From the NCBI GenBank assembly GCA_014804795.1, contig JAAUZC010000012.1:69076-133075 (forward strand): DNA of 64,000 bases, given 5' to 3'. Below the pieces are notes generated by a model. It searched no databases, was not told the DNA's origin, and was given only the letters and a program-made list of their open reading frames with translations. The stretch's first letter is position 1. The number at the start of each line of letters is the position of its first letter. A program made the translations under genes and the position numbers. The DNA comes from Lachnospiraceae bacterium. GTDB lineage: Bacteria; Bacillota; Clostridia; Lachnospirales; Lachnospiraceae. This document shows, piece after piece, positions 54,368-64,000 of the stretch.

Positions 54368-55093
54368 ATGGGAAAAAAGAGGAGGGAAAGGAAAGATTTA
54401 TACGGTCTGATGATGCGGGCGGGAGTGCTGTTAGAACTGGCGGCAATCGTCTGTGTGATCTGTATAGGGACTGTCACCGAAAATGAGAAAGAAGAAAAAG
54501 CAATGAGACAGGCAAATGCGGACGGTATCTGGGAGGTCCTGGAAAAACATCAACAGGGCGAAATAGTGGAAACGGCTTCCGGAGATTATATCAAATGGGT
54601 GGATTTCACAGTGCCGGAGGAGGCGATGAGCAAGGCGTATCAGTATGATGTTGACAGTTACGGTCAGGAAATCCATATAAACTGGATTGAATTGTTGGCT
54701 TATGCTGCGGCAAGGCAGGGCGGCGATTTTGGGAAGGCGGCACTGAAAAATATAGATGACTGTGCAGCTAAGCTGTTGGAAGGAGAGACCATAGAAAATC
54801 TGACAGAGAAGTTAAAATATTATCCCTATTATCTGGAGGCTTATACGGCGGTTTTGGGCGGCTTTGTAGGCGAATATGAGATGGAGGGAGAAAAACGCTA
54901 TGGGCTGAAAGCTTTTTCTCCGATTGCAGCAGGATTTTATTATACGGATTATGATGATTTCGGGGCATCCAGAAGTTATGGGTACGCGAGGCCTCACTTG
55001 GGTCATGACATGATGGGGCAGATTGGTACGACGATAGGAATAAAATATAGAACCTGCGCATCAAAAAATGATGTGCAGGTTTCCGTCCTTTAA
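54368..55093 (+). pseudogene. M23 peptidase gene cut by element insertion
   Basis: N-terminal 220 residues of a Lachnospiraceae-type M23 metallopeptidase (cell-wall endopeptidase): membrane helix (VLLELAAIVCVICIGTV), a helical domain (IKWVDFTVPEEAMSKAYQYD, INWIELLAYAAARQGGDFG) and the start of the peptidase domain (DYDDFGASRSYGYARPHLGH, DMMGQIGT) with its first zinc ligands in HLGHD. After GT the family sequence should continue PIxAVExGxVExxGWN, but instead reads TIGIKYRTCASKND and stops at 55093. The second zinc motif (HLH) and about 130 residues are therefore missing. The break is where the recombinase-bearing element begins. SD AAAGGAAAG precedes the ATG. Confidence 0.85.
55018..55040 (+). 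other. Left attachment junction (attL) of the integrated element
   Basis: Peptidase homology ends at the codons for GT (55025-55030); the next bases belong to the element. The crossover core of large serine recombinases is two bases, so it lies within about 55018-55040. The other end is outside the window. Confidence 0.6.
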
Positions 55094-56617
55094 GACACAT
55101 TTCTTGATAATCTTTCGGATCAATTCGTTTTTTGCAGTATACTCTATAGAATCAAAATTGTCTAGCAGATAACAGATATTCTGATAAATATAATGTTCAG
55201 TTTCCTCAAGGGTCCTGTTTGATGCTTCCTGGAGCGTAGCTTTGCGAAGATTCGTTTCCAGTGTTTTCTTTTGTTTATCAAGTTCCTCCATCTTGGATAT
55301 GATGTAAGGGGCAGCAGATGAGTCCGAGGCATTCATCAGGGCAGCAGTGAGGTTATCAATGGCGGCGCCCGTCTGTTTGAGTTCTTCCTTGATGGAAGAG
55401 ATATTCTGCAGAGAGCCATCGGGATCCTGACGCAGTTTGAAACCATCAGGATTAAAACGGATTTTGCGCAGCTCTTTTAAAAAGGCGTCCTCAACCTGAT
55501 CTGTCCGTATGTATCCGGTATTGCATTTGGACTTTCCCTGTCTGAACATGTCCACACAGTAATAATAGGAGAAAATGCGACCGCCCTTTGTGTAAGTCCT
55601 GACATCCACTCTGGCACCGCACTGACACCGGATCACGCCTTTCAGGATACCGCATTCATATTTGGCGGAGCGAACCATCTTATTGATGCCCAGACGGTTC
55701 TGAGCTGCAATCCAGTCGGATGCAGGCATCACAGGATCATGAATACCGATGGCTATTGCCCAGTCTGATTTTTCCTGTTTCTTTTGAGAGGTTTTACCGG
55801 TTTTGGTTTTACCGTATCCGATCAGGCCCTTCTTACTATCGAATAGGGCCGGATCCGGGAGAGAGCATCCCAGATCATGAAAATAGTAATAGGCTTCCAT
55901 GCTGTTCTGACAATATACCGGATTCGTGAGGATATTGTATATCTGTGATGTATTCAGATATTTGCCGGTCTGGCTCCTGATGCCGTGATCTCTGCAGTGG
56001 CGTTCTATTTTGGTGATAGAATATCCCTGTAAAATGAGATTGTAGAGCATCTTTACAAGGCGGATTTTATCGTTATCCACCATAAGGTAGGAATGCTCCT
56101 TGTCTCCGATCTGCCGGCGGACGGAAGTCATTCCGGATGGAAGCTTGCCGCCTGTCCATTTCCCGGCGCTGCCCAGGGCGCGCATGTTATCAGTGACACG
56201 CTCCGAAGTATTTTCCCGTTCAAGCTGAGCAAACGCAGCGAGGATATACATGACAGTCCGGCCCATCGGCGTGGTGGTATCAAAAGATTCTTTTACAGAG
56301 ACAAAAGAAACATTATGTTGTTCAAATATTTCATACATTGCAGAAAATTCCTGTACGTTACGGCTGATACGGTCCAGCTTATAGACCATGACCACATCCA
56401 GAACATCATTCCGGACATCGCTCATAAGCTCCTGGAAGCTGGGGCGGTTCATATTTTTGCCGGAGAAGCCCTCATCTTTGTCATAGATTTTGAAAGTGAT
56501 ATCTTTGTCCTTGAAAATAATGCCTGCATAGTCTTTGCAGAGCTGTACCTGGACACTGACAGAATCACTGTTATCGCGGTACACGGACTTTCTCGGATAG
56601 ATCCCTACAGTGAACAT
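55061..56617 (-). CDS. Large serine recombinase (integrase)
   Basis: 518-residue site-specific recombinase. Resolvase-type catalytic domain with the nucleophile Ser11 (YPRKSVYRDN), YDKDEGFSGKNMNRPSFQEL, VYKLDRISRN and FAQLERENTSERV; then the recombinase domain (GKLPSGMTSVRRQ, NTSQIYNILTNPVYC), a zinc ribbon (RCQCGARVDVR and CNTGYIRT) and a coiled coil (residues 410-480). It should integrate and excise the element through attP/attB. The ATG at 56617 follows AGGAGGATGAATCT; an ATG at 56641 lacks SD. Its 3' end overlaps the broken M23 frame by 33 bases, with a hairpin (CCTGC-CATC/GATG-GCAGG) around the stop. Confidence 0.93.
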   Translation of the reverse strand: MFTVGIYPRKSVYRDNSDSVSVQVQLCKDYAGIIFKDKDITFKIYDKDEGFSGKNMNRPSFQELMSDVRNDVLDVVMVYKLDRISRNVQEFSAMYEIFEQHNVSFVSVKESFDTTTPMGRTVMYILAAFAQLERENTSERVTDNMRALGSAGKWTGGKLPSGMTSVRRQIGDKEHSYLMVDNDKIRLVKMLYNLILQGYSITKIERHCRDHGIRSQTGKYLNTSQIYNILTNPVYCQNSMEAYYYFHDLGCSLPDPALFDSKKGLIGYGKTKTGKTSQKKQEKSDWAIAIGIHDPVMPASDWIAAQNRLGINKMVRSAKYECGILKGVIRCQCGARVDVRTYTKGGRIFSYYYCVDMFRQGKSKCNTGYIRTDQVEDAFLKELRKIRFNPDGFKLRQDPDGSLQNISSIKEELKQTGAAIDNLTAALMNASDSSAAPYIISKMEELDKQKKTLETNLRKATLQEASNRTLEETEHYIYQNICYLLDNFDSIEYTAKNELIRKIIKKCVLKDGNLHIIF

Positions 56618-56656
56618 AGATTCATCCTCCTGTATTATCATACTGGCAGCAGGGCA

Positions 56657-56691
56657 TAAAAATGCCCCAGAGGTGACGCTCCGGGGCTTTT
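56657..56691 (-). terminator. Terminator-like hairpin in the recombinase leader
   Basis: GCCCCAGAG (56664-56672) pairs with CTCCGGGGC (56679-56687), one mismatch. On the minus strand it is followed by ATTTTTAT and on the plus strand by TTTT, so it may work both ways. It lies between the promoter at 56738-56766 and the recombinase start. Confidence 0.75.
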
Positions 56692-56737
56692 CGTTTGTCG
56701 TCCTGCATGGACTATTCGTGTCTTTTTGCCTACAGGC

Positions 56738-56766
56738 ATTATAGCATACGCAGATTTTCTTTGCAA
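56738..56766 (-). promoter_or_regulatory. Promoter of the recombinase gene
   Basis: On the minus strand TTGCAA (56766-56761) and TATAAT (56743-56738) are 17 bases apart, with the extended -10 TGC before TATAAT. Start would be near 56731, giving a leader of about 110 bases that contains the terminator hairpin. Confidence 0.75.
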
Positions 56767-56821
56767 TATGCGCCCCGGAAATAATTTTTATGAATTTTTA
56801 AAGGTTCCTTATCAGCTCTAT

Positions 56822-56854
56822 AATTTCCCAACAACTCTACCCATACACAGAGAG
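56822..56854 (-). repeat. 33-base repeat, copy 1 (before recombinase)
   Basis: Matches 30 of 33 bases with 58666-58698; core ACAACTCTACCCATACACAG on the plus strand. It follows the end of the Bro-N-like gene region and precedes the recombinase promoter in minus-strand sense. Confidence 0.7.
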
Positions 56855-56925
56855 ATTATATCGGTACTCCCGGTATAGTTCCAATCCGCTCTGGTGCTGG
56901 TAACACTGGGGCGGACTTTTTATAT

Positions 56926-57831
56926 TTAGTTTTCATCAAGATATTTAGGTGTAGTTGCGTTTGTAGGAGAGATAACACTTCTTCCTAACTGCTTTTCAAG
57001 TTCTTTGCGGGCATTTCCAGCAATGTTGCCGCCGGCTTTAGCAATTTCTTTACTTTGAGAAAATCCGTTTGGGTTTGCGTTTCTGGAGAGCTCAGTAGTA
57101 GAAACCTCGGCCAGAAGATTAAGTGCAAGTTCCGTATTGGTCATATTGTCACGGAGATTTCCTTTATGTAAGTTTTTAAATTGCTTATATTGCTTTACAG
57201 TTTTTCCAGACCATGCATGAGTAAGGATATTGGTCAAAGCAGCAAATTCCTGATGGTTTTTGATTCCGGAACGCTGCCACTCATCCGTCATTTCCTTGCG
57301 AATTTCTATGCTTCTGAGACGCTGAGCTATCCATGCATCGGAATAGCCTTTTGCCTTGTAGTAGCTGACAGCACGATCCATAGCCTTTTCGGGATCTGCC
57401 ATCTCATCAAGGCGCTCTTTGCCCACCATGGCAAGCCACCGTTTAAAAGGTTCGGCTTTCTTGGATGGTATGGATTGAATGATCCTTAAAATCCCAGAAA
57501 TAGAAGCCATTTGTATTTTTCGCTTTTTTCCGTCTGCAGCAATCATTGGAAGTAGGGTACAAATTGTACCCCAGTTGCTATTAAGCTCCGGATCACGTGC
57601 TCTCATTTTTTTGATATACTGTTTGGGATCAGCACTATCGGTCAATACCTTACATGCATCAACAATGGAAAAATACCACTCTTCCTGTTGCCAATAGAAA
57701 AGCTTTTGTACTTTGTCATTAAAATAAAATTCTAAATCCTGTTCATCAAAATCTTCTACATTTTCAACCGGGACCTGAACAGTAGAATCGGTTTCCTCAT
57801 CGTAGAAATAAAAGAAAAAGAAGACAATCAC
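56926..57831 (-). CDS. Bro-N/antirepressor-like phage protein
   Basis: Up to 301 residues. Residues 35-130 look like a Bro-N (antirepressor N-terminal) domain: FYWQQEEWYFSIVDACKVLT, KQYIKKMRARDPELNSNWGT, and the rest (KPFKRWLAMVGKERLDEMAD-like, RSIEIRKEMTDEWQRSGIKN, EFAALTNILTHAWSGKTVKQ) matches the long C-terminal part seen in DinD-like and phage antirepressor proteins. Such proteins usually counter a repressor during induction. The beginning is uncertain: the frame opens with GTG at 57831 immediately next to GGAGG, and the first 12 residues (Phe/Tyr-rich) look unlike the family, so translation may start elsewhere. Confidence 0.75.
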   Translation of the reverse strand: MIVFFFFYFYDEETDSTVQVPVENVEDFDEQDLEFYFNDKVQKLFYWQQEEWYFSIVDACKVLTDSADPKQYIKKMRARDPELNSNWGTICTLLPMIAADGKKRKIQMASISGILRIIQSIPSKKAEPFKRWLAMVGKERLDEMADPEKAMDRAVSYYKAKGYSDAWIAQRLRSIEIRKEMTDEWQRSGIKNHQEFAALTNILTHAWSGKTVKQYKQFKNLHKGNLRDNMTNTELALNLLAEVSTTELSRNANPNGFSQSKEIAKAGGNIAGNARKELEKQLGRSVISPTNATTPKYLDEN

Positions 57832-57867
57832 CTCCAGTTTTTTATAATTCTGATATTATTTATAACC

Positions 57868-58446
57868 TTAGTCTTTGATAGAATCCTCTTTTTGCTTTAT
57901 TGTATCAAGTAACATAATTGCTTGCGCTATTTCATCATCGGTATATTTATTGTCATAAGAAATTGAAGTATCATTTGAGGATTTTTTACCAAACCGCTTT
58001 TTAATACCTTTCAATATAGGTTGAATGATCAAACCCAATACAAAGAAGAAAGCGCTGATAGAAATACTTTGAAAGAAACTTTTGCCGCTACTGGCATTTA
58101 ATTCCTGATTAATTTTTGCTTGCACAGCATTTACTTGCTCATCTGTCATACTAATTAGATTTTCTGCAATTTCAGCTTCTTTCTTAAGATTTTCGACATA
58201 TTTGATTCTGGCTTCAAGTTCTTTTTGTATATTTGACAGTTCAGAAGATGCTTCTGCTAAATTATTGGATATATTTTCAATTTTAATTGATATATCTGCA
58301 TTGTCTGTTTCAACAGTATCAGAAAACACTGACAACAAAAGAGAAAGAACGCTAATAAATGTACAAATTATCGCTAATATAAGTGATATTTTTTCATTTA
58401 CATCCATAATTGTAATTTTACGTTTGAATTTATGTGCTTTAGACAT
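57868..58446 (-). CDS. Two-helix membrane protein with coiled coil
   Basis: 192-residue protein of no recognised family: basic N-terminus, membrane helix (ISLILAIICTFISVLSLLLS), a coiled coil of about 75 residues (ISIKIENISNNLAEASSELS to EQVNAVQAKINQEL), a second membrane helix (SISISAFFFVLGLIIQPIL) and a basic-then-acidic cytoplasmic tail. Both ends should be cytoplasmic with the coiled coil outside. The ATG at 58446 is chosen for AAAGGA about 8 bases ahead; a longer frame to 58488 has no SD. In a mobile element this could be an exclusion or host-interaction factor; that is speculation. Confidence 0.65.
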   Translation of the reverse strand: MSKAHKFKRKITIMDVNEKISLILAIICTFISVLSLLLSVFSDTVETDNADISIKIENISNNLAEASSELSNIQKELEARIKYVENLKKEAEIAENLISMTDEQVNAVQAKINQELNASSGKSFFQSISISAFFFVLGLIIQPILKGIKKRFGKKSSNDTSISYDNKYTDDEIAQAIMLLDTIKQKEDSIKD

Positions 58447-58578
58447 AGCTATAATCCTTTGATTTTCTTCAGTATTTAGCCGAATCATCAGATTGACACA
58501 ATAGATAATCCGTCTGCCATTAATCTAAAAAGCAATTATTGAGTTTACAGTTTTATAGCTGGGTTAAGATGTTCCACA

Positions 58579-58665
58579 CTATATGTGTTGATAAGTTTGT
58601 TCAGTAATGCCAAATTTCTCAGCTAATTGCTTTTGGTTCCTGTTGCGATATCGCAACAGAATCAT
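58579..58665 (-). pseudogene. Truncated HTH (XRE-like) remnant
   Basis: A 28-codon frame with SD (AGGA, 6 bases ahead) reading RNQKQLAEKFGITEQTYQHI then TAG: the first half of a Cro-type helix-turn-helix, cut after the recognition helix. Codons 3-8 lie in a perfect 18-base palindrome TGTTGCGATATCGCAACA (58641-58658). Either a dead regulator or a fragment left by recombination. Confidence 0.45.
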
Positions 58666-58698
58666 AATTTTCCTACAACTCTACCCATACACAGAAAG
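58666..58698 (-). repeat. 33-base repeat, copy 2
   Basis: Second copy of the repeat at 56822-56854, with three differences. In minus-strand sense it forms the leader directly before the truncated HTH frame, including that frame's SD. Confidence 0.7.
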
Positions 58699-58717
58699 TC
58701 CTCTGTAATATCTGGTT

Positions 58718-59290
58718 TTATTGCTCTGCATTTTTTGAAGTAACAACAGCAGTACCAGATGCAAGGACACCAATCATGCTGCCATTTAAAGGGGCAAAGT
58801 TCATTGAAACACCTATAACAGCATTGCAAGATTGCAGATAAGCATCTCTTTTTAATTGATAAAGAGCAGCAGTTTTTGCAGCGGAAATTTTGGTTTCTGC
58901 TGAAAGAGAGGTTAAACCGAGTGAATCGGTGAGTTTGGCTTCAAATTCATGGAATATAGCAGTTCCAAAAACAGAAATGCCAGTAACAACATTTTTGTAT
59001 TCAATAATAGAATAGCCATCTAAAAAATCTGTTGTTGAAACAGGCAAGGAATCTATTTCCTTATTTATTTCGCCATTGGCATCCTGAATGATTTTTATAA
59101 GAGTATCTGTAGCAGGATGATTTTTAGTGGAATTAAGGATATCTGAAAAATATTTTCCATCTGATTTAGATGAAGCAATTTTAAGATATTCTTCACGGCA
59201 TGTATTGCATATTTTGCCCGGAATCCCATTCATTGTAAATCCACCCATAAATGGAATGTTATCTTTTTGACATAAGTAGCATTTTGCCAT
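58718..59290 (-). CDS. YbjQ-like protein with N-terminal zinc motif
   Basis: 190-residue protein. Residues 1-40 have a Cys4 site (CYLCQK and CNTCREEY). Residues 80-185 match the YbjQ (UPF0145) fold, a pentameric heavy-metal-binding-like domain: TTDFLDGYSIIEYKNVVTGI, AALYQLKRDAYLQSCNAVIG, VSMNFAPLNGSMIGVLASGT, AVVT. Function of the family is unknown; a zinc-ribbon plus YbjQ pairing also occurs in other clostridial and phage proteins. The ATG at 59290 is preceded by AGGGGGCTACT. Confidence 0.75.
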   Translation of the reverse strand: MAKCYLCQKDNIPFMGGFTMNGIPGKICNTCREEYLKIASSKSDGKYFSDILNSTKNHPATDTLIKIIQDANGEINKEIDSLPVSTTDFLDGYSIIEYKNVVTGISVFGTAIFHEFEAKLTDSLGLTSLSAETKISAAKTAALYQLKRDAYLQSCNAVIGVSMNFAPLNGSMIGVLASGTAVVTSKNAEQ

Positions 59291-59349
59291 AGTAGCCCCC
59301 TTAGATTTATTTATAGTATATTATTGTTTTGTATAGCAACAATAATATC

Positions 59350-59547
59350 ATGAAAATCTTATTAGATAAAGTCATGTATGAAAAAAATGTTTCAGTCCGT
59401 CAGTTGGAGATTATGTCTGGCGTGCCACGATCAACAATAAATGATATTATGTCTGGACGCACGTCGCCGCGGTTGAACACTCTGGAGAAACTGGCAAGAG
59501 CGCTGAATTGCCAGATTACAGATCTTTTTGAGTCAGATACAAAATAA
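59350..59547 (+). CDS. Small XRE-family DNA-binding protein
   Basis: 65-residue Cro/CI-type helix-turn-helix (YEKNVSVRQLEIMSGVPRST, INDIMSGRTSPRLNTLEKLA, RALNCQITDLFE), consisting of only the DNA-binding domain. Divergent from the YbjQ-like gene, so it may repress the shared 59-base region. No SD precedes the ATG at 59350; a -10-like TATAGTAT at 59313 suggests a short leader or an alternative TTG start at 59329. Confidence 0.8.
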   Translation: MKILLDKVMYEKNVSVRQLEIMSGVPRSTINDIMSGRTSPRLNTLEKLARALNCQITDLFESDTK

Positions 59548-59841
59548 GTGTCCGAGATATCGGACGATTACGAAATTTGCGTTACTAAATAAAGTCTCCC
59601 GAGAATAAATTAGTAAATTATACTAATAAAAGTTCCGAAAGCGTTTGCGAAGAAAGGAGGGCATGATCAAAACACGGAGCGTACATTTCAGGTAAAGGGA
59701 GACGGTACATATATCATTTTGCAGATTTATTCAATCACTTTTATTCTGGAATTCAGCAATTTTTTTGGCTTTTTCAATTTTGTAGTGGATGGCTACTTAA
59801 TCAGTTCTTTTTTACTACTTAAAAATTGGATATAAAAAGGG
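59548..59841. other. AT-rich gap within the element's control region
   Basis: 294 bases without a supported gene. Contains the hairpin GTCCGA-GATA-TCGGAC at 59550-59565 just after the small XRE gene, and a ten-codon frame with AAAGGAGGG at 59649 that I do not consider a gene. Confidence 0.5.
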
Positions 59842-60165
59842 TTATTCTCTCTTTTCTTTATTCATGCTATCCAAGGTATTTACAAAAGCCAATACCGCCC
59901 GGGCTTCACTATCGGACATCTTTTGAATTTTTTTGAGTATTTCAGATTTTTCGGCAGTTATTTCCTTATCTTCGGATGCCCAGTAGTCTAGAGAAGTTCC
60001 AAAAAACTCTGCCAATTTCCGCAAGGTAGTAAGTTTTAATCCCTCATAGCCCTTCTTATACCAACCATCAATGGTGGTATACGGAATATTACATGCTTTA
60101 GACAAAGTGCTTTTATTTAGATGGTTTTTCTCCATCAAATCATTTAGTTTCTCCAGAAAATCCAT
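59842..60165 (-). CDS. XRE-family repressor-like protein (second of tandem pair)
   Basis: 107 residues: helix-turn-helix at 1-65 (LMEKNHLNKSTLSKACNIPY, TTIDGWYKKGYEGLKLTTLR, KLAEFFGTSLDYWAS) and a short C-terminal helix (KKIQKMSDSEARAVLAFVNT, LDSMNKEKRE). The HTH pattern is that of phage repressors. ATG at 60165 with AAAGAGGTGAT ahead. It follows the other XRE gene by seven bases, so the two are co-transcribed and may form a heteromeric or two-tier switch. Confidence 0.82.
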   Translation of the reverse strand: MDFLEKLNDLMEKNHLNKSTLSKACNIPYTTIDGWYKKGYEGLKLTTLRKLAEFFGTSLDYWASEDKEITAEKSEILKKIQKMSDSEARAVLAFVNTLDSMNKEKRE

Positions 60166-60172
60166 TGTATTA

Positions 60173-60550
60173 TCACCTCTTTTCAGAGTTATTTGGGGTA
60201 GGCTGAAGCGATTTTTCCAACTCATCCAAAGAGTTGATGAAAGCTAAAACAGCTTTTACTTGTTCATCATTCATTTTTTCCAGTTGAGCAAGTGCCTTCT
60301 GGTGAATTTCAGATAATGATTTATCTTTGCTAATTTGTTTTAACTTAGGTTCAATTCCGTTAAGTACCCACTCGGCATTGTACCCATATTTTTCTTCAAT
60401 CAAAACTGCGAGCGATTGAGATAACCGAATATCTGGATCTTTAAGGAGTTTGGATATATAGCTCTCGGTTACACCAATTACGGAAGCAAACTGTTTTTGC
60501 TTTAAATTATTTTCTTTCAGTATTTGTCTTATTCTATCACATTGGCTCAT
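60173..60550 (-). CDS. XRE-family repressor-like protein (first of tandem pair)
   Basis: 125 residues: helix-turn-helix (ENNLKQKQFASVIGVTESYI, SKLLKDPDIRLSQSLAVLIE, EKYGYNAEWVLNGIEP) plus a C-terminal helix (LAQLEKMNDEQVKAVLAFIN, SLDELEKS) clearly similar to the one in the following XRE gene. SD AGGAGG is 7 bases before the ATG. Divergent from the rightward small-gene transcript, whose promoter and operator-like repeats lie in the 125-base gap; the usual CI/Cro-style layout. Confidence 0.85.
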   Translation of the reverse strand: MSQCDRIRQILKENNLKQKQFASVIGVTESYISKLLKDPDIRLSQSLAVLIEEKYGYNAEWVLNGIEPKLKQISKDKSLSEIHQKALAQLEKMNDEQVKAVLAFINSLDELEKSLQPTPNNSEKR

Positions 60551-60586
60551 AGTGTACCTCCTATGAACTAAACAATAGCAAAAAAA

Positions 60587-60652
60587 CTTGAATAAGTCAA
60601 GAAAAAGATATTGACAGCATGAATAAGTTGATTTATACTTGAACCATTCAAT
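60587..60652 (+). promoter_or_regulatory. Rightward early promoter with repressor-type operators
   Basis: TTGACA (60611-60616) and TATACT (60634-60639) are 17 bases apart, a near-consensus promoter for the rightward genes. A perfect inverted repeat CTTGA-ATAAG-TCAAG lies at 60587-60601; a related half-site GAATAAGT lies in the spacer (60621-60628) and another TTGAA..TTCAA at 60639-60651. The three likely bind one or both of the divergent XRE proteins. Confidence 0.7.
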
Positions 60653-60675
60653 ATATGAAAGGAGGAATTAGAATT

Positions 60676-60837
60676 ATGACTCTTGACAAAAAAGCGGCAA
60701 TCCAAAAGATTACAGAAATGCCGACAGAGAGAGTATCAAAGGTGTTAATTTTCATGGCAGGCATGGAAGCAGAACACATTATTGTTGAAAAGAGTGAAGA
60801 AGAAAAACAGCGTAACCCAACAAAACAACTCGCGTAA
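60676..60837 (+). CDS. Small protein sharing the XRE pair's C-terminal helix
   Basis: 53 residues without a DNA-binding domain. The segment IQKITEMPTERVSKVLIFMA, GME resembles the C-terminal helix of the two divergent XRE proteins (KMNDEQVKAVLAFINSLDE; KMSDSEARAVLAFVNTLDS). It could bind to and modulate those repressors as a small antirepressor; inference only. ATG at 60676; the AAAGGAGG ahead of it overlaps an earlier in-frame ATG (60655). First gene of the rightward transcript. Confidence 0.65.
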   Translation: MTLDKKAAIQKITEMPTERVSKVLIFMAGMEAEHIIVEKSEEEKQRNPTKQLA

Positions 60838-60868
60838 ATATACAGAAGGAAGGGAAAGGGGTGAGGAG

Positions 60869-61156
60869 ATGGGAAAGAATAAAAAGACTGCTTCACATAA
60901 GAAACAGCATTTAATAGTAAAAATTCAGCCTGGAATGTTAATTGTCCTGAATGGTAATTTGCGAAAGAAAGTGAGAAAAGAGATAGATGAAGTTATAAAA
61001 GTTACCTGTAAAAAGATAAAAGATGGAAATGGAATGACTGAGCAGCAAAAGGAAACAATAAAGGCTCTTGCTAGTCTTGTGTCAGCAAGGGCGCTTTTGA
61101 ATTATGAGTTTGAATCTTCTGAAGAAATTTTATTCTGGAGTTTTGCTAATTTTTAA
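60869..61156 (+). CDS. Hypothetical small protein
   Basis: 95 residues, very basic at the start (MGKNKKTASHKKQHLIVKIQ) with a helical C-terminal half (MTEQQKETIKALASLVSARA). No family recognised. The ATG at 60869 follows GAAAGGGGTGAGGAG. The first 30 bases and the leader resemble those of the gene at 61803 (both read GGAAAGGGGTGAGG..ATGGGAAAGAA), which suggests duplication of a start region. Confidence 0.6.
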   Translation: MGKNKKTASHKKQHLIVKIQPGMLIVLNGNLRKKVRKEIDEVIKVTCKKIKDGNGMTEQQKETIKALASLVSARALLNYEFESSEEILFWSFANF

Positions 61157-61217
61157 GTCCCTTTTCAGAAGTGTGTACCCAGTGAATAAAAGCCTATAAA
61201 TGAGCAGAAGAAGGGAA

Positions 61218-61406
61218 CTACTCCCCTTCTTCCTGTTTCCTTTTTAAGGCTTCCTCTTGCTCTCTTAATACTTGCAGTCCTAATCTAATTAACTCCAAGG
61301 TCGCTTGTGAACGGCTATTATAGCGGTTGCCGAAACGGAAATCATCAATTTCTTTAAGCATTTCATCATCAACAGTTATGCAGTATCGTGGTTTTTCTGT
61401 TGGCAT
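61218..61406 (-). CDS. Ribbon-helix-helix (CopG/Arc-like) regulator
   Basis: 62 residues: beta strand KPRYCITVDDEMLKEIDDFR followed by two helices (SRSQATLELIRLGLQVLREQ), the ribbon-helix-helix DNA-binding fold, and a charged tail. ATG at 61406 has GAGGTGAT 8 bases ahead; a GTG/ATG pair upstream is less well spaced. Divergent from another ribbon-helix-helix gene; a perfect palindromic operator lies 25 bases before its start. Confidence 0.8.
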   Translation of the reverse strand: MPTEKPRYCITVDDEMLKEIDDFRFGNRYNSRSQATLELIRLGLQVLREQEEALKRKQEEGE

Positions 61407-61430
61407 GTTCATCACCTCGGTGTTTATTAT

Positions 61431-61451
61431 ACATCAGTGTATCACTGATGT
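61431..61451. promoter_or_regulatory. Operator 1 (palindrome) before the leftward RHH gene
   Basis: Arms ACATCAGTG and CACTGATGT are perfect 9-base inverted repeats around TAT. It shares AGTGTATCACTGAT with operator 2. Confidence 0.75.
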
Positions 61452-61477
61452 AAAGAAGAACTTTATAAAATTTATTA

Positions 61478-61507
61478 TTGACAAGTGTATCACTGATACA
61501 CTATAAT
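61478..61507 (+). promoter_or_regulatory. Consensus promoter with operator 2 in its spacer
   Basis: TTGACA (61478-61483) and TATAAT (61502-61507), both perfect consensus, 18 bases apart. The palindrome AGTGTATCACTGATACACT (61484-61502; 9-base arms around C) fills the spacer exactly, so binding would block polymerase. Drives the rightward RHH gene at 61557. Confidence 0.85.
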
Positions 61508-61520
61508 ACAGAAAAAGCTA

Positions 61521-61537
61521 GTGCATCGGTGATACAC
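61521..61537. promoter_or_regulatory. Operator 3 (imperfect) in the RHH leader
   Basis: GTGCATCG-G-TGATACAC: one half equals that of operator 2, the other differs by two bases. It lies between the promoter and the SD of the 61557 gene. Confidence 0.65.
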
Positions 61538-61556
61538 CAAAAAAGGAGGTGAAAAT

Positions 61557-61745
61557 ATGGCTAACACAATGGAGCGTCTTATGGTATCGATTCCCGCAGA
61601 GGTGAAAAACGAAATTGATGCTGTAAAGCAGAGAGAGTTCTACGATAAGCCCTATGCGGAATTGTATAGGCAGATTATTCGTTTGGGACTCGACAAAATG
61701 AGGGAAGTAGAGACAAAAGGAAATCAGTGCGAAATGGCGTCCTAA
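61557..61745 (+). CDS. Ribbon-helix-helix regulator, probably autorepressed
   Basis: 62 residues: strand ERLMVSIPAEVKNEIDAVKQ, then YAELYRQIIRLGLDKMREVE, an Arc/CopG-type fold. SD AAAGGAGGTGA is a full match to the 16S tail. The promoter and two or three palindromic operators directly ahead suggest that this or the divergent RHH protein represses both genes. Such divergent pairs often govern copy number, transfer or lysogeny in mobile elements. Confidence 0.82.
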   Translation: MANTMERLMVSIPAEVKNEIDAVKQREFYDKPYAELYRQIIRLGLDKMREVETKGNQCEMAS

Positions 61746-61802
61746 AACGCCCTATCCACCACGAAGTTGGAATACCCACTAAAAGAGGAAAGGGGTGAGG
61801 GA

Positions 61803-61970
61803 ATGGGAAAGAAAAAACATAAATGGACGGTAGAAGAAGAATTGCTCCACAAACAGTTACAGTTACTTGCGGAGCAATCTAAATCTAAAATTTGTTCGCC
61901 ACATGAACTTGCAGAGCTTTCAGAACAGATGGTCACTATTTATTTCGTTCTGAATATTCAATGTTTTTGA
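61803..61970 (+). CDS. Hypothetical small protein
   Basis: 55 residues, basic start (MGKKKHKWTVEEELLHKQLQ) then an amphipathic helix (LLAEQSKSKICSPHELAELS). Unknown family. ATG at 61803 after GGAAAGGGGTGAGGGA. Its 3' end overlaps the convergent gene at 61936-62094. Confidence 0.55.
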   Translation: MGKKKHKWTVEEELLHKQLQLLAEQSKSKICSPHELAELSEQMVTIYFVLNIQCF

Positions 61971-62094
61971 GAACGTAGTTGTATAAATCAGTGACTATTT
62001 GCTCGACATCATATTTTCCTTCATTACCAGCTTTATGAAGTGCATCTTTATATGATAATTTAACAAGTTCTAGAGCGATTTCGTCTTTTGACAT
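61936..62094 (-). CDS. Hypothetical small protein
   Basis: 52 residues, acidic and helical (MSKDEIALELVKLSYKDALH, YDVEQIVTDLYNYVLKNIEY). Unknown family. The ATG at 62094 has AAAGGAG 11 bases ahead. Its promoter-leader (62095-62175) is repeated almost exactly in front of the gene at 62363-62587. Confidence 0.65.
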   Translation of the reverse strand: MSKDEIALELVKLSYKDALHKAGNEGKYDVEQIVTDLYNYVLKNIEYSERNK

Positions 62095-62103
62095 TAAGGT
62101 ATG

Positions 62104-62140
62104 CTCCTTTCTTTTGTACTCGGCTCTGGCAGGAGCCTGT
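62104..62140 (-). repeat. Duplicated leader with hairpin, copy 1
   Basis: On the plus strand CTCCTTTCTTTTGTACTCGG and CTCTGGCAGGAGCCTGTA; the same sequence with two changes recurs at about 62596-62632. On the minus strand it holds the hairpin GGCTC-CTGCCA-GAGCC followed by the SD AAAGGAG. Confidence 0.75.
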
Positions 62141-62146
62141 AAGGAA

Positions 62147-62175
62147 AGTATAGGGGAAAAAGGCATAAATGGCAA
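62147..62175 (-). promoter_or_regulatory. Leftward promoter of the 61936-62094 gene
   Basis: Minus strand TTGCCA (62175-62170), 17 bases, TATACT (62152-62147). The start would be close to the hairpin leader. Confidence 0.65.
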
Positions 62176-62222
62176 GGAAGTTGCTGAATGAAAAATAGAA
62201 TGGAAGGGGGTGAGGGAGAGCC

Positions 62223-62366
62223 ATGTTGTCTATGCCAATAGAGGTAGTTGTAAAAATAAAATCTTTTGGAGACATAGAAGAGGTGTTAAACAAATTTGAA
62301 GAAATCAAAAAGGCCAATCCCAAGAAAGTAATTAAGATGACCATAGAGATTGACCTTATTGATTAG
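62223..62366 (+). CDS. Tiny protein (47 residues)
   Basis: 47 residues, MLSMPIEVVVKIKSFGDIEE then VLNKFEEIKKANPKKVIKMT, IEIDLID: beta-helix-beta pattern with strong hydrophobic alternation, so probably folded. SD GGGGGTGAGGGAG is 6-8 bases ahead. Its stop overlaps the convergent gene at 62363 by four bases. Unknown family. Confidence 0.6.
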   Translation: MLSMPIEVVVKIKSFGDIEEVLNKFEEIKKANPKKVIKMTIEIDLID

Positions 62367-62587
62367 TTCTCCTGCTTCAAGACATCAATTACCATCAGGT
62401 TAGTACCTGAAACGGTAAAGCATCCATTGGCAGTATACAAGTACGTTGTCTTTAAAGGGAGCTGAGTTGTGAGGATGGAATCGCCAGATACTTCCTTTAG
62501 ATTGCTTGGGGTTTGAATCATAATTTTGTTGACGCCCTTGATATCATAAGTATTGCCGTCTGAATAAACAAAATGAAAATCAAACAT
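62363..62587 (-). CDS. Hypothetical small beta-rich protein
   Basis: 74 residues, mainly beta (MFDFHFVYSDGNTYDIKGVN, KIMIQTPSNLKEVSGDSILT, CFTVSGTNLMVIDVLKQEN). Unknown family. The ATG at 62587 is best spaced from AAAGGAG; an ATG two codons upstream is too close. Shares promoter and leader with the 61936-62094 gene. Confidence 0.65.
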   Translation of the reverse strand: MFDFHFVYSDGNTYDIKGVNKIMIQTPSNLKEVSGDSILTTQLPLKTTYLYTANGCFTVSGTNLMVIDVLKQEN

Positions 62588-62595
62588 TGTCATTC

Positions 62596-62632
62596 TCCTT
62601 TCTTCCGTACTCGGCTCTGGCAGGAGCCTGTA
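62596..62632 (-). repeat. Duplicated leader with hairpin, copy 2
   Basis: Second copy of the leader at 62104-62140, including GGCTC/GAGCC hairpin and AAAGGAG, ahead of the gene at 62363-62587. Confidence 0.75.
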
Positions 62633-62637
62633 CCAAT

Positions 62638-62666
62638 AGTATAGGAGAAAAAGAAAATTAGGACAA
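62638..62666 (-). promoter_or_regulatory. Leftward promoter of the 62363-62587 gene
   Basis: Minus strand TTGTCC (62666-62661), 17 bases, TATACT (62643-62638), at the same distance from the duplicated leader as the promoter at 62147-62175. Confidence 0.6.
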
Positions 62667-62695
62667 TATGGAATTTGCAGAACAGGGAGAAAGGG

Positions 62696-62761
62696 GTGAA
62701 AATAATAGGGATCATTATAGTTCTCTTATTATTTTGGATATATATTTTGGCAAAGCACTAA
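62696..62761 (+). CDS. Tiny membrane peptide (21 residues)
   Basis: GTG start with GGGAGAAAGGG directly before it; product VKIIGIIIVLLLFWIYILAK plus His, a single hydrophobic helix. It resembles the many one-helix peptides of phages and plasmids (toxin- or holin-like in size), but sequence this short cannot prove translation. The reading frame ends inside a hairpin (62751-62768). Confidence 0.35.
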   Translation: MKIIGIIIVLLLFWIYILAKH

Positions 62762-62794
62762 TGCTTTGAAATATATGAGAAAAGATATATCCAA
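62734..62794. repeat. Nested inverted repeats (possible origin-type structure)
   Basis: Outer arms TTGGATATAT (62734-62743) and ATATATCCAA (62785-62794) are perfect 10-base complements; an inner perfect stem CAAAGCA-CTAA-TGCTTTG sits at 62751-62768. No T-run follows. Such nested hairpins can be single- or double-strand origins of rolling-circle replicons; unproven here. Confidence 0.5.
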
Positions 62795-62858
62795 AAACTA
62801 ATAAAAGAATTTGGTAGTAAATTGAGTATCTTGTTTGGAGGAGGGGGTGAAAAAGGAC

Positions 62859-63023
62859 ATGAAAGAACCAAACAGCAAATCAAAGCAGTGCGTAGATTTG
62901 ACAGATGGCAAAGGAAACGTTATGGAATCTGCCGGAAGCAAGGAAGACCGGGGGAAAGGATTTATCCGGATCATGGGAGCATATTGCGGGAAACTTAAAA
63001 CTGCGATAACAGAAAACAGATAA
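62859..63023 (+). CDS. Hypothetical small protein
   Basis: 54 residues (MKEPNSKSKQCVDLTDGKGN, VMESAGSKEDRGKGFIRIMG, AYCGKLKTAITENR), hydrophilic, no family. The ATG at 62859 lies 8 bases after GGAGGAGGGGGTGA; a GTG at 62847 is inside that SD. A GC-rich hairpin CCCGG-CGGT..ACC-CCGGG follows at 63032-63058. Confidence 0.55.
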   Translation: MKEPNSKSKQCVDLTDGKGNVMESAGSKEDRGKGFIRIMGAYCGKLKTAITENR

Positions 63024-63175
63024 TCAAAAGTCCCGGCGGTACGGGCATACCAACCGGGGCAAAACAAAATTCTTAACAAATTCAATATAGCATTTCTTAT
63101 ACAGAAAAGCAAATGAATTTTGGAAAGATGTACATGCAGTAGTACATAGGATTTACAAAAAGGAAAGGTGCAGGC

Positions 63176-63331
63176 ATGAAAAAACAAAATACAATTGAGT
63201 GCACCGTTGAGTTTACAGAGGGTGCGACAGAGAGAATCACAGATGCCTTTGTAGATCTATATTATCAGATAGAGCGTGGGATTTATAAGGGACCGTTGCT
63301 CCCTAAAGAGACAACAGATGAAACCGCATAA
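63176..63331 (+). CDS. Tiny protein (51 residues)
   Basis: 51 residues, MKKQNTIECTVEFTEGATER then ITDAFVDLYYQIERGIYKGP, LLPKETTDETA: strand-helix pattern of a small folded protein. SD AAGGAAAGGTG is 6 bases ahead. Unknown family; small proteins of this look are common ahead of replication genes of integrative elements. Confidence 0.65.
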   Translation: MKKQNTIECTVEFTEGATERITDAFVDLYYQIERGIYKGPLLPKETTDETA

Positions 63332-63341
63332 GCGGTTAAGA

Positions 63342-63373
63342 GTGGACAAGCCTTAAGGAGCTGTGGACAAGCC
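63342..63373 (+). repeat. Two direct repeats spaced 21 bases
   Basis: GTGGACAAGCC at 63342-63352 and 63363-63373; start-to-start distance 21 bases, two helical turns, so one protein could bind both on the same face. They lie in the short gap before the 63397 gene. Confidence 0.6.
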
Positions 63374-63396
63374 ATCTTTAAGAAAGGAGCGGAGAG

Positions 63397-63600
63397 ATGA
63401 AGCTAAAAGAAGTAAGCCAGCTGGTGGTAGGAGAGGTGTCATTATATGAAGAGGCGGAAAAGGGATCTGAATGCAATTTTCGCGACATTTTTGCAGGGGA
63501 TTGCGGTGACATTCCAGAAGAGATGCTGGAAAGGGAAATCGTCATAATGAGCGCATCCACAAATGGCAGAATGTTGGATATTAAACTGAAAAAACAATAA
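63397..63600 (+). CDS. Small element protein upstream of replication gene
   Basis: 67 residues: KEVSQLVVGEVSLYEEAEKG, NFRDIFAGDCGDIPEEMLER, EIVIMSASTNGRMLDIKLKK. The pattern (short beta sheet ending in IVIMSA...LDIKLK) is one I associate with small proteins beside Rep genes in firmicute elements, but I cannot name the family. SD AAAGGAGCGGAG is just ahead of the ATG. Confidence 0.7.
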   Translation: MKLKEVSQLVVGEVSLYEEAEKGSECNFRDIFAGDCGDIPEEMLEREIVIMSASTNGRMLDIKLKKQ

Positions 63601-63603
63601 AAC

Positions 63604-63716
63604 AGCCGGCGTTCCCGCGCCGGCCATGGACCAAAGTCCGTATCAAAAACCCTATTAAAAGTATACGGCAAAAGGTCCGGAATGTCAAGGAAAAAGCGGG
63701 TTTTCAGCCCGCTTTT
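63604..63716 (+). terminator. Hairpin and terminator before the Rep-like gene
   Basis: Hairpin GCCGGCG-TTCCCG-CGCCGGC at 63604-63623, directly after the 63397 gene, and a second AAAAGCGGG/CCCGCTTTT at 63692-63716 with T-run, a good intrinsic terminator. The Rep-like gene would then need its own promoter or antitermination. Confidence 0.7.
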
Positions 63717-63759
63717 GTAGCTCTATTAGAATATTAAACTTAGGACAGGAGGGACTGGA

Positions 63760-64000
63760 TTGTTTGCAATAGACAGCTATTATCTCATCAATCATATAGA
63801 ACATGAGTATAAGTATCCGGGAAGGTATGGAGCGAGAGGTGAGAAGCGGAAGAAAAAGAAGAAAGCCACACCGGAGCAGGTGGCAAAGCAGAATCAGTAT
63901 AACCGGGAAGTAAGGATCAGGCGTCTGCTTCGGAATAATTTCTATCCGGGTGATTACTGGGTGACGTTGAAATATAAGAGCGGTGCGAGGAAGTGTATGG
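63760..64000 (+). CDS. Rolling-circle replication initiator-like protein, 3'-truncated by window
   Basis: Starts with TTG (63760) after AGGAGG at proper spacing; 80 codons are visible and the frame is open at the window edge. After a tyrosine-rich start (FAIDSYYLINHIEHEYKYPG) and a very basic stretch (GEKRKKKKKATPEQVAKQN) comes RRLLRNNFYPGDYWVTLKYK, SGARKCM. The pattern N-F-x-PGDxxVTLxY is that of the first conserved block of HUH-type Rep proteins found in firmicute phages, plasmids and integrated elements. The metal-binding HUH block and catalytic Tyr would be beyond the window. Confidence 0.65.
   Translation, partial: MFAIDSYYLINHIEHEYKYPGRYGARGEKRKKKKKATPEQVAKQNQYNREVRIRRLLRNNFYPGDYWVTLKYKSGARKCM

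Follow-up and report, generated by a model that had tools for sequence, protein, structure and literature searches.

A recurrent putative promoter–hairpin leader of small accessory genes in a tailed prophage of a Lachnospiraceae bacterium

Among the published elements that we found, the nearest in kind to the one considered here are the start-associated and extended start-associated sequences (SAS and ESAS) of Cluster K mycobacteriophages (PMC3203893, PMC12699233), SAS being a 13-bp start-site sequence (GGGATAGGAGCCC) with 17-bp repeats; they are short, conserved and partly inverted-repeat, lie just 5′ of the starts of different gene families in one phage group, and are of unproven function. 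Here, we analysed a 64,000-bp stretch of DNA from a Lachnospiraceae bacterium (the window; positions 69076–133075 of the 247.8-kb contig C12, GenBank JAAUZC010000012.1), the right part of which holds the beginning of a prophage. Its control region contains two copies of a short leader, each composed of a putative promoter, a hairpin and a ribosome site ahead of a small gene.

Like SAS/ESAS, the leader is one conserved element that precedes different gene families within a phage, but its hairpin spans about 24–26 nt, its spacing to a promoter of its own is fixed, and it occurs in phages of many host genera. No exact copy of the SAS consensus was present in 204 loci by exact matching, whereas the papers permit two mismatches. 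A literature search by motif and leader terms returned no earlier report; supplements may hold a prior listing, notably that of PMC8040213, a study that predicts thousands of microbiome RNAs.

Judging by its sequence features, the leader is probably a modular promoter plus 5′-end hairpin for swappable accessory genes, acting as RNA. The reading as a whole, in which a tailed prophage with an HUH Rep carries in its control region a widespread phage expression module of this kind, present twice, has in our estimate a probability of roughly 0.6.

The leader and the genes behind it

Tiny, strand-alternating open reading frames (ORFs) run from about 59.3 to 63.7 kb of the window, and two small minus-strand genes (62363–62587 and 61936–62094) are embedded there among plus-strand ORFs. 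The starts of both share a 62-bp repeat (62101–62162 and 62592–62653, 87% identity) with the layout promoter TTGNNN-17-TATACT, 5 nt, TACAGGCTCCTGCCAGAGCCGAGTA, GAAAGGAG, the start codon following 45–47 nt from the hairpin start; the hairpin itself (~25 nt) reads TACA-GGCTC-CYGCCA-GAGCC-GAGTA. A preliminary description of this DNA had recorded the run of tiny genes and had named, but not described, an unusual control region; that region goes beyond chance, since its repeat holds a leader that recurs in related genomes. With a covariance model built from 31 copies, 31 of 299 genomes of the same family (own genome included) gave a total of 57 matches at E≤0.01; a class-wide sample of 391 genomes gave four at E≤0.001, these being the source genome, another from its family and two outside that family that match weakly. 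In a set of 61 genomes, made up of the source genome and its relatives, the hairpin pattern allowing three mismatches at most occurred at seven sites in five genomes. Two of the seven sites lie in the window, and the reversed pattern gave no site at all.

The fixed layout is also visible in viral contigs. A scan of IMG/VR with a hairpin-only pattern returned 28 sites in 26 contigs, 26 of which were distinct after removal of two exact duplicates (L075 repeats L061). In 22 of these 26 sites, a −10 box with five or more of its six positions matching lay at exactly −11 to −6, and each of the remaining offsets from −30 to +9 accounted for one site at most; a TTG at 17-nt spacing was present in 19, a Shine-Dalgarno-like site in 22, and in 23 an ORF of 35 aa or longer begins 38–51 nt on. 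Two near-identical sites, L063 and L082, have neither promoter nor Shine-Dalgarno-like site nor ORF, look like chance and were excluded from alignment A1. Requiring the exact pattern and the −10 box in named genomes yielded 39 stretches, 17 of them titled Lachnospiraceae; six more bear Acetatifactor, Blautia parvula, Clostridium clostridioforme, Enterocloster bolteae or Hungatella names, which we take to be Lachnospiraceae, and the remainder are Clostridiaceae, Oscillospiraceae, Ruminococcus or less exactly named. One 91-bp leader searched in plasmids gave no match.

In many gut phages the leader appears, with little change, ahead of dozens of mutually unrelated small genes. An ORF with a ribosome site was found at 86 of 94 leader matches, 85 of the 86 starting 40–49 nt from the hairpin start. 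These 94 and a further 72 matches (166 in all), minus duplicates and copies near locus ends, reduce to 158 distinct copies, 149 of which precede an ORF of at least 35 aa; the ORFs fall into 90 families (BLASTP, E≤1e-3), 58 of them with a single member, and the 148 complete ones have a median length of 72 aa. Of the 86 leader ORFs mentioned above, 81 were selected after short, incomplete, duplicate or too distant ones were dropped, and 79 were scanned for domains (L076:2456-2617 and L141:9616-9939 were left out). Known domains are rare among them: DUF2513, zinc ribbons, KTSC, YozE and one TIR-type PADLOC match, with 12 Pfam families, mostly of one or two members each, and two PADLOC family matches overall. 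Unrelated cargo genes on one contig can stand behind leaders that are up to 100% identical, and locus L166 (JAIEEY010000221.1) has seven hairpin-led cassettes in an array. Some opposite-strand ORFs between the cassettes of L166 share the start MEEINIP..., so that both strands may use repeated modules.

The surroundings were sampled through the three largest ORFs of 170–520 aa per locus, which gave 113 ORFs from 39 of 40 leader loci: 12 match phrog_1 and 8 phrog_95, both integrases, and two antirepressor families have five matches each, perhaps to the same proteins. Integrase and antirepressor neighbours fit prophage immunity regions.

The leader is also present in isolated Ruminococcus gnavus siphophages, phiRg519T2, phiRgPS_6 and phiRgIBDN1, described in a report (PMC10072058) that does not use the words promoter, hairpin or inverted repeat. 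In all three, the leader gene had been annotated as 'hypothetical protein' and is opposite in strand to the flanking genes; the stretches examined hold, on the leader's strand, an integrase in phiRg519T2 and phiRgPS_6, and a helix-turn-helix (HTH) regulator and a superinfection-exclusion protein in phiRgIBDN1. phiRg519T2 and phiRgPS_6 share the leader as a 101-bp block of 99% identity, including a 96-nt identical run, directly beside which BLASTN aligns nothing on either side, and the cargo proteins (74 and 118 aa) are different. phiRgIBDN1, in turn, is 96% identical to phiRg519T2 across the leader region and has the same cargo.

We considered, and rejected as a universal rule, that the leader is always antisense to its surroundings: in a crude, ORF-based strand count that took in the 68 leaders having 2.5 kb of sequence to either side, only 28 oppose most neighbouring coding. 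The arrangement does hold for the three R. gnavus phages and for nine loci with a leader at most 3.2 kb from a Rep, namely eight genomes (for our own, the farther of its two leaders being counted) and MT835488, a phage record from human feces with a Rep of the same family and, 2.3 kb upstream on the opposite strand, a leader.

RNA hairpin, operator or recombination site

The pairing of the hairpin arms is maintained although their sequence changes. In an alignment of 90 distinct copies, itself fitted to the covariance model, 97.9% of pair cells are standard, and 35 cells have changed on both sides, against 4.8 in shuffled alignments (none of 500 reaching 35) and at most 3 with slid partners. 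A parse that does not depend on the model alignment assigned an inner hairpin of 16 nt to 115 of the 158 distinct copies, of 14 nt to 34 and of another length to nine; excluding these nine, 972 of 1009 pair cells in 149 copies are Watson-Crick. No Rfam 15 covariance model matched the hairpins in window positions 55030–64000 or in five multi-copy loci (E≤1).

In the mechanism that we propose, a sigma-70-type promoter would be placed such that transcription starts at the foot of the short stem-loop, which would be followed by a ribosome site and then by one small accessory gene. The module would stay near constant while cargo genes are exchanged, and the 5′-end RNA hairpin, with its conserved basal motif ACAG..CGAGUA, may protect the message or bind a host-encoded factor, the outcome being steady expression of accessory genes that might serve lysogeny or counter-defence. 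Several observations weigh against an RNA-level role: the folds of single copies are not unusual, wobble counts have no discriminating power, and predicted folds usually leave the outermost transcribed pair open.

A rival reading takes the hairpin for a DNA operator, with a repressor binding the inverted repeat just past the promoter and acting as a single switch for the accessory genes, in the manner of dispersed phage repressor sites. C-A deviations, almost as common as G-U, would suit it, as would the inverted-repeat nature of the hairpin, its fixed position beside the −10 box in those 22 of 26 viral sites, and the single set of outer arms in 11 of the 34 loci with at least two copies. In the other 23, however, the outer arms differ, and in 13 of the 34 the total hairpin length does; variation of arms and lengths within single loci is hard to square with one sequence-reading repressor. 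The existence of two main inner lengths, mostly with a 6-nt loop, and the unequal spacing of the outer motifs (A versus GA) point in the same direction, and we consider an operator possible but rather unlikely.

Less probable still, in our view, is that the leader persists chiefly as a site of recombination, at which homologous recombination swaps cargo in an integron-like manner and expression is incidental. Both the 101-bp island shared by two isolated phages, on either side of which nothing aligns, and the near-identical leaders of the seven-copy array would be expected of such a site, but the positions that are conserved, i.e. the −10 box, the hairpin, the ribosome site and the start spacing, fit expression.

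Extended to its full breadth, the reading of the leader as a promoter with a 5′ hairpin would imply that gut Lachnospiraceae phages share an unreported mobile promoter and 5′ structured RNA leader, read by a host factor and carrying cartridge-like immunity or counter-defence cargo in arrays of up to seven; this broader version we advance tentatively, its chances being somewhat short of even. Most small accessory genes of gut phages are uncharacterised and difficult to detect, and a leader that marks them offers a way of searching for them: a single model of 43 positions, together with a handful of short patterns, gathered 149 ORFs in 90 families. Were it a general on-switch, the leader would point to candidate superinfection-exclusion or counter-defence genes and could serve as a ready-made expression part for Lachnospiraceae, and the isolated R. 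gnavus phages make our reading of it testable.

The prophage and its HUH Rep

On its gene content and attachment site, the element is a 39.5-kb tailed (siphovirus-type) prophage that a serine integrase inserted into an M23-peptidase gene, of which the window holds the left, integrase-and-control end. Beyond the window's right end, the Rep gene is followed by genes for RNase H, a PcfJ-domain protein, a DNA methyltransferase and the small and large terminase subunits, and then by portal, head protease, scaffold, major capsid, neck, major tail, tape measure, Dit, tail protein and endolysin genes; structural, packaging and lysis genes were assigned by PHROGs, and family scans covered part of the prophage ORFs. 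The core GGTACG at 55025–55030, the end of which coincides with the left edge given in the preliminary description, has a second copy at C12:163641, 39,541 bp away, and the integrase sits 30 bp inside the left core. When joined, the outer flanks form a single 367-aa M23-peptidase frame, and the uninterrupted site is present in a genome of the same genus (G184). Structural genes, paired cores, the rejoined frame and this empty site together argue for a tailed prophage in a bacterial gene; as a single integrated block that holds terminase, portal, capsid and tail genes and has a core at each end, it belongs with the Caudoviricetes prophages. Three further genomes (G300, G302 and G305) carry at the same site an integrase that is 80–81% identical over 507 aligned aa.

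The preliminary description had proposed an integrated rolling-circle element with a serine recombinase, without tailed-phage genes and possibly filamentous-phage-like or plasmid-like. The recombinase and the integration were borne out, no structural gene was seen within 55030–64000, and an HUH (rolling-circle type) Rep is the only replication initiator recognised in the scanned prophage genes; the terminase, portal, capsid and tail genes further along the contig, which it had itself named as contrary evidence, overturn the filamentous or plasmid-like part. An inovirus, a rolling-circle plasmid or an integrative and conjugative element, of which the HUH Rep, the serine integrase and the PcfJ-domain protein (a family named after a conjugative plasmid) might be reminiscent, is highly improbable for the element as a whole and was rejected, because head, packaging, tail and lysis genes lie in the same 39.5 kb between the two cores. 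Among the scanned genes, no relaxase or type IV secretion gene was seen.

The Rep, which runs off the window, is complete at 273 aa on the contig and contains the PGDxxVTLxY strand noted in the preliminary description, then H120-A-H122 and then Y168, i.e. the HUH motif and catalytic tyrosine that it had proposed to look for; a Rep frame lacking HUH motifs, the other contrary evidence it had named, is thus not what the contig shows. The complete protein matches PF23343 (REP_ORF2-G2P; 4e-13, 49.9 bits against a cut-off of 27.8) and phrog_3584 (1e-43). Among 30 loci found via phrog_3584, HxH is present in all and a downstream YxxK in 29 (in L037, both motifs are on its other strand). Alignment A6, comprising 23 of these loci and the window's own Rep (the other seven were read for motifs only), shows H120, H122 and Y168 invariant across 24 rows, which had been pre-selected by the HxH motif; with three phage records added, H120 is conserved in at least 90% and no longer invariant. 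For a structure model of the Rep (pLDDT 86.9), the top-scoring solved chains are viral and Helitron Rep nucleases, while a PDB sequence search with the Rep profile gave matches only at E≥0.036, and a search with the Rep for related loci in viral contigs gave no result. The Rep most likely nicks phage DNA to begin rolling-circle replication for packaging.

Phage P2 gpA and filamentous phage gpII are HUH-type rolling-circle initiators, and P2 illustrates that a tailed phage can use one; the prophage Rep matches PF23343 and phrog_3584. HUH Reps of this family are already known in isolated tailed phages. Butyrivibrio phages Arawn and Idris, Dulem virus 34 and Latilactobacillus phage TMW 1.1381 P1 have them; the records of Arawn, Dulem virus 34 and TMW 1.1381 P1 place these three in the Caudoviricetes. 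Their Reps differ from that of the prophage (25–34% identity), as do the annotated neighbour genes, and no hairpin leader was detected in the examined stretches of Arawn, Dulem virus 34 and TMW 1.1381 P1.

A Rep occurs in 16 of 31 hairpin-containing genomes and in 45 of 268 others (Fisher p 3.9e-5), an association confounded by prophage load. The hairpin was considered as the replication origin of the Rep and rejected, because it is found in phages that the Rep does not match (none of the three R. gnavus phages is among the eight records matched by the prophage Rep, and the phiRg519T2 stretch has NinG/NinB and Rad52-type genes) and because it carries a promoter, a ribosome site and an ORF.

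The source genome encodes a second phrog_3584 Rep (G000:C10:169834-170649, locus L013), which fits the family profile better than the prophage Rep does; a second HUH-Rep element in this genome is therefore likely. In L004:13554-16727, the genes directly behind the Rep encode RNase H, a 175-aa protein without a match and a PcfJ-domain protein, possibly a replication cassette.

Coordinates and further features of the window

Table 1. Features of the prophage end and its flank, in window coordinates
Feature	Position	Strand	Basis or remark
Left part of interrupted M23-peptidase gene	54368..55030	+	Ends in core GGTACG; right part from C12:163641, beyond window
Large serine integrase	55061..56641	-	Pfam Resolvase/Recombinase/Zn_ribbon_recom; phrog_95 integrase 4e-105
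Bro-N / antirepressor-like protein	56926..57831	-	PF02498 4e-9; phrog_15286 (unknown function) 6e-114
HTH repressor-like protein (RstR-type match under curated cut-off)	59842..60225	-	NCBIfam NF041951 3.7e-9, 36.8 bits vs cut-off 80
Second HTH repressor-like protein	60173..60550	-	Weak HTH-family matches, all under curated cut-offs
Small ribbon-helix-helix-like repressor	61218..61415	-	phrog_4738 transcriptional repressor 4e-15; NikR-type matches under cut-off
Putative divergent control site: TTGACA-18-TATAAT and three GTGTATCA-type palindromes between two ribbon-helix-helix-like genes	61423..61540	.	
Second small ribbon-helix-helix-like gene (tentative)	61557..61745	+	phrog_38821 (unknown function) 7e-5; weak NikR match 0.002
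Cassette 2 cargo, 52 aa, no assigned function	61936..62094	-	ORF with Shine-Dalgarno site, 47 nt after hairpin start
Cassette 2 hairpin TACAGGCTCCTGCCAGAGCCGAGTA	62117..62141	-	Model R1, 67.8 bits; copy among those the model was built from
Cassette 2 putative promoter TTGCCA-17-TATACT	62147..62175	-	
Cassette 1 cargo, 74 aa (76 aa from upstream ATG)	62363..62587	-	Belongs to five-member cargo family
Cassette 1 hairpin TACAGGCTCCTGCCAGAGCCGAGTA	62608..62632	-	Model R1, 61.8 bits; copy among those the model was built from
Cassette 1 putative promoter TTGTCC-17-TATACT	62638..62666	-	
Start of HUH Rep	63760..64000 (gene to 64581 in window numbering, on contig)	+	PF23343, phrog_3584; H120, H122, Y168, K171 conserved in family

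Besides the features collected in Table 1, a YbjQ-domain protein with a Cys-rich N-terminus is encoded at 58718–59290 (−), on the same strand as the integrase. An Rfam sok match at 62988–63127 (+) scores 26.5 bits against a gathering threshold of 59 and was taken as chance. The GTGTATCA-type pattern has five strand matches at three places (up to three mismatches) where 0.15 would be expected, the pattern having been derived from the same site. With a perfect promoter sequence overlapped by palindromes between divergent ribbon-helix-helix-like genes, 61423–61540 may constitute a compact two-repressor switch.

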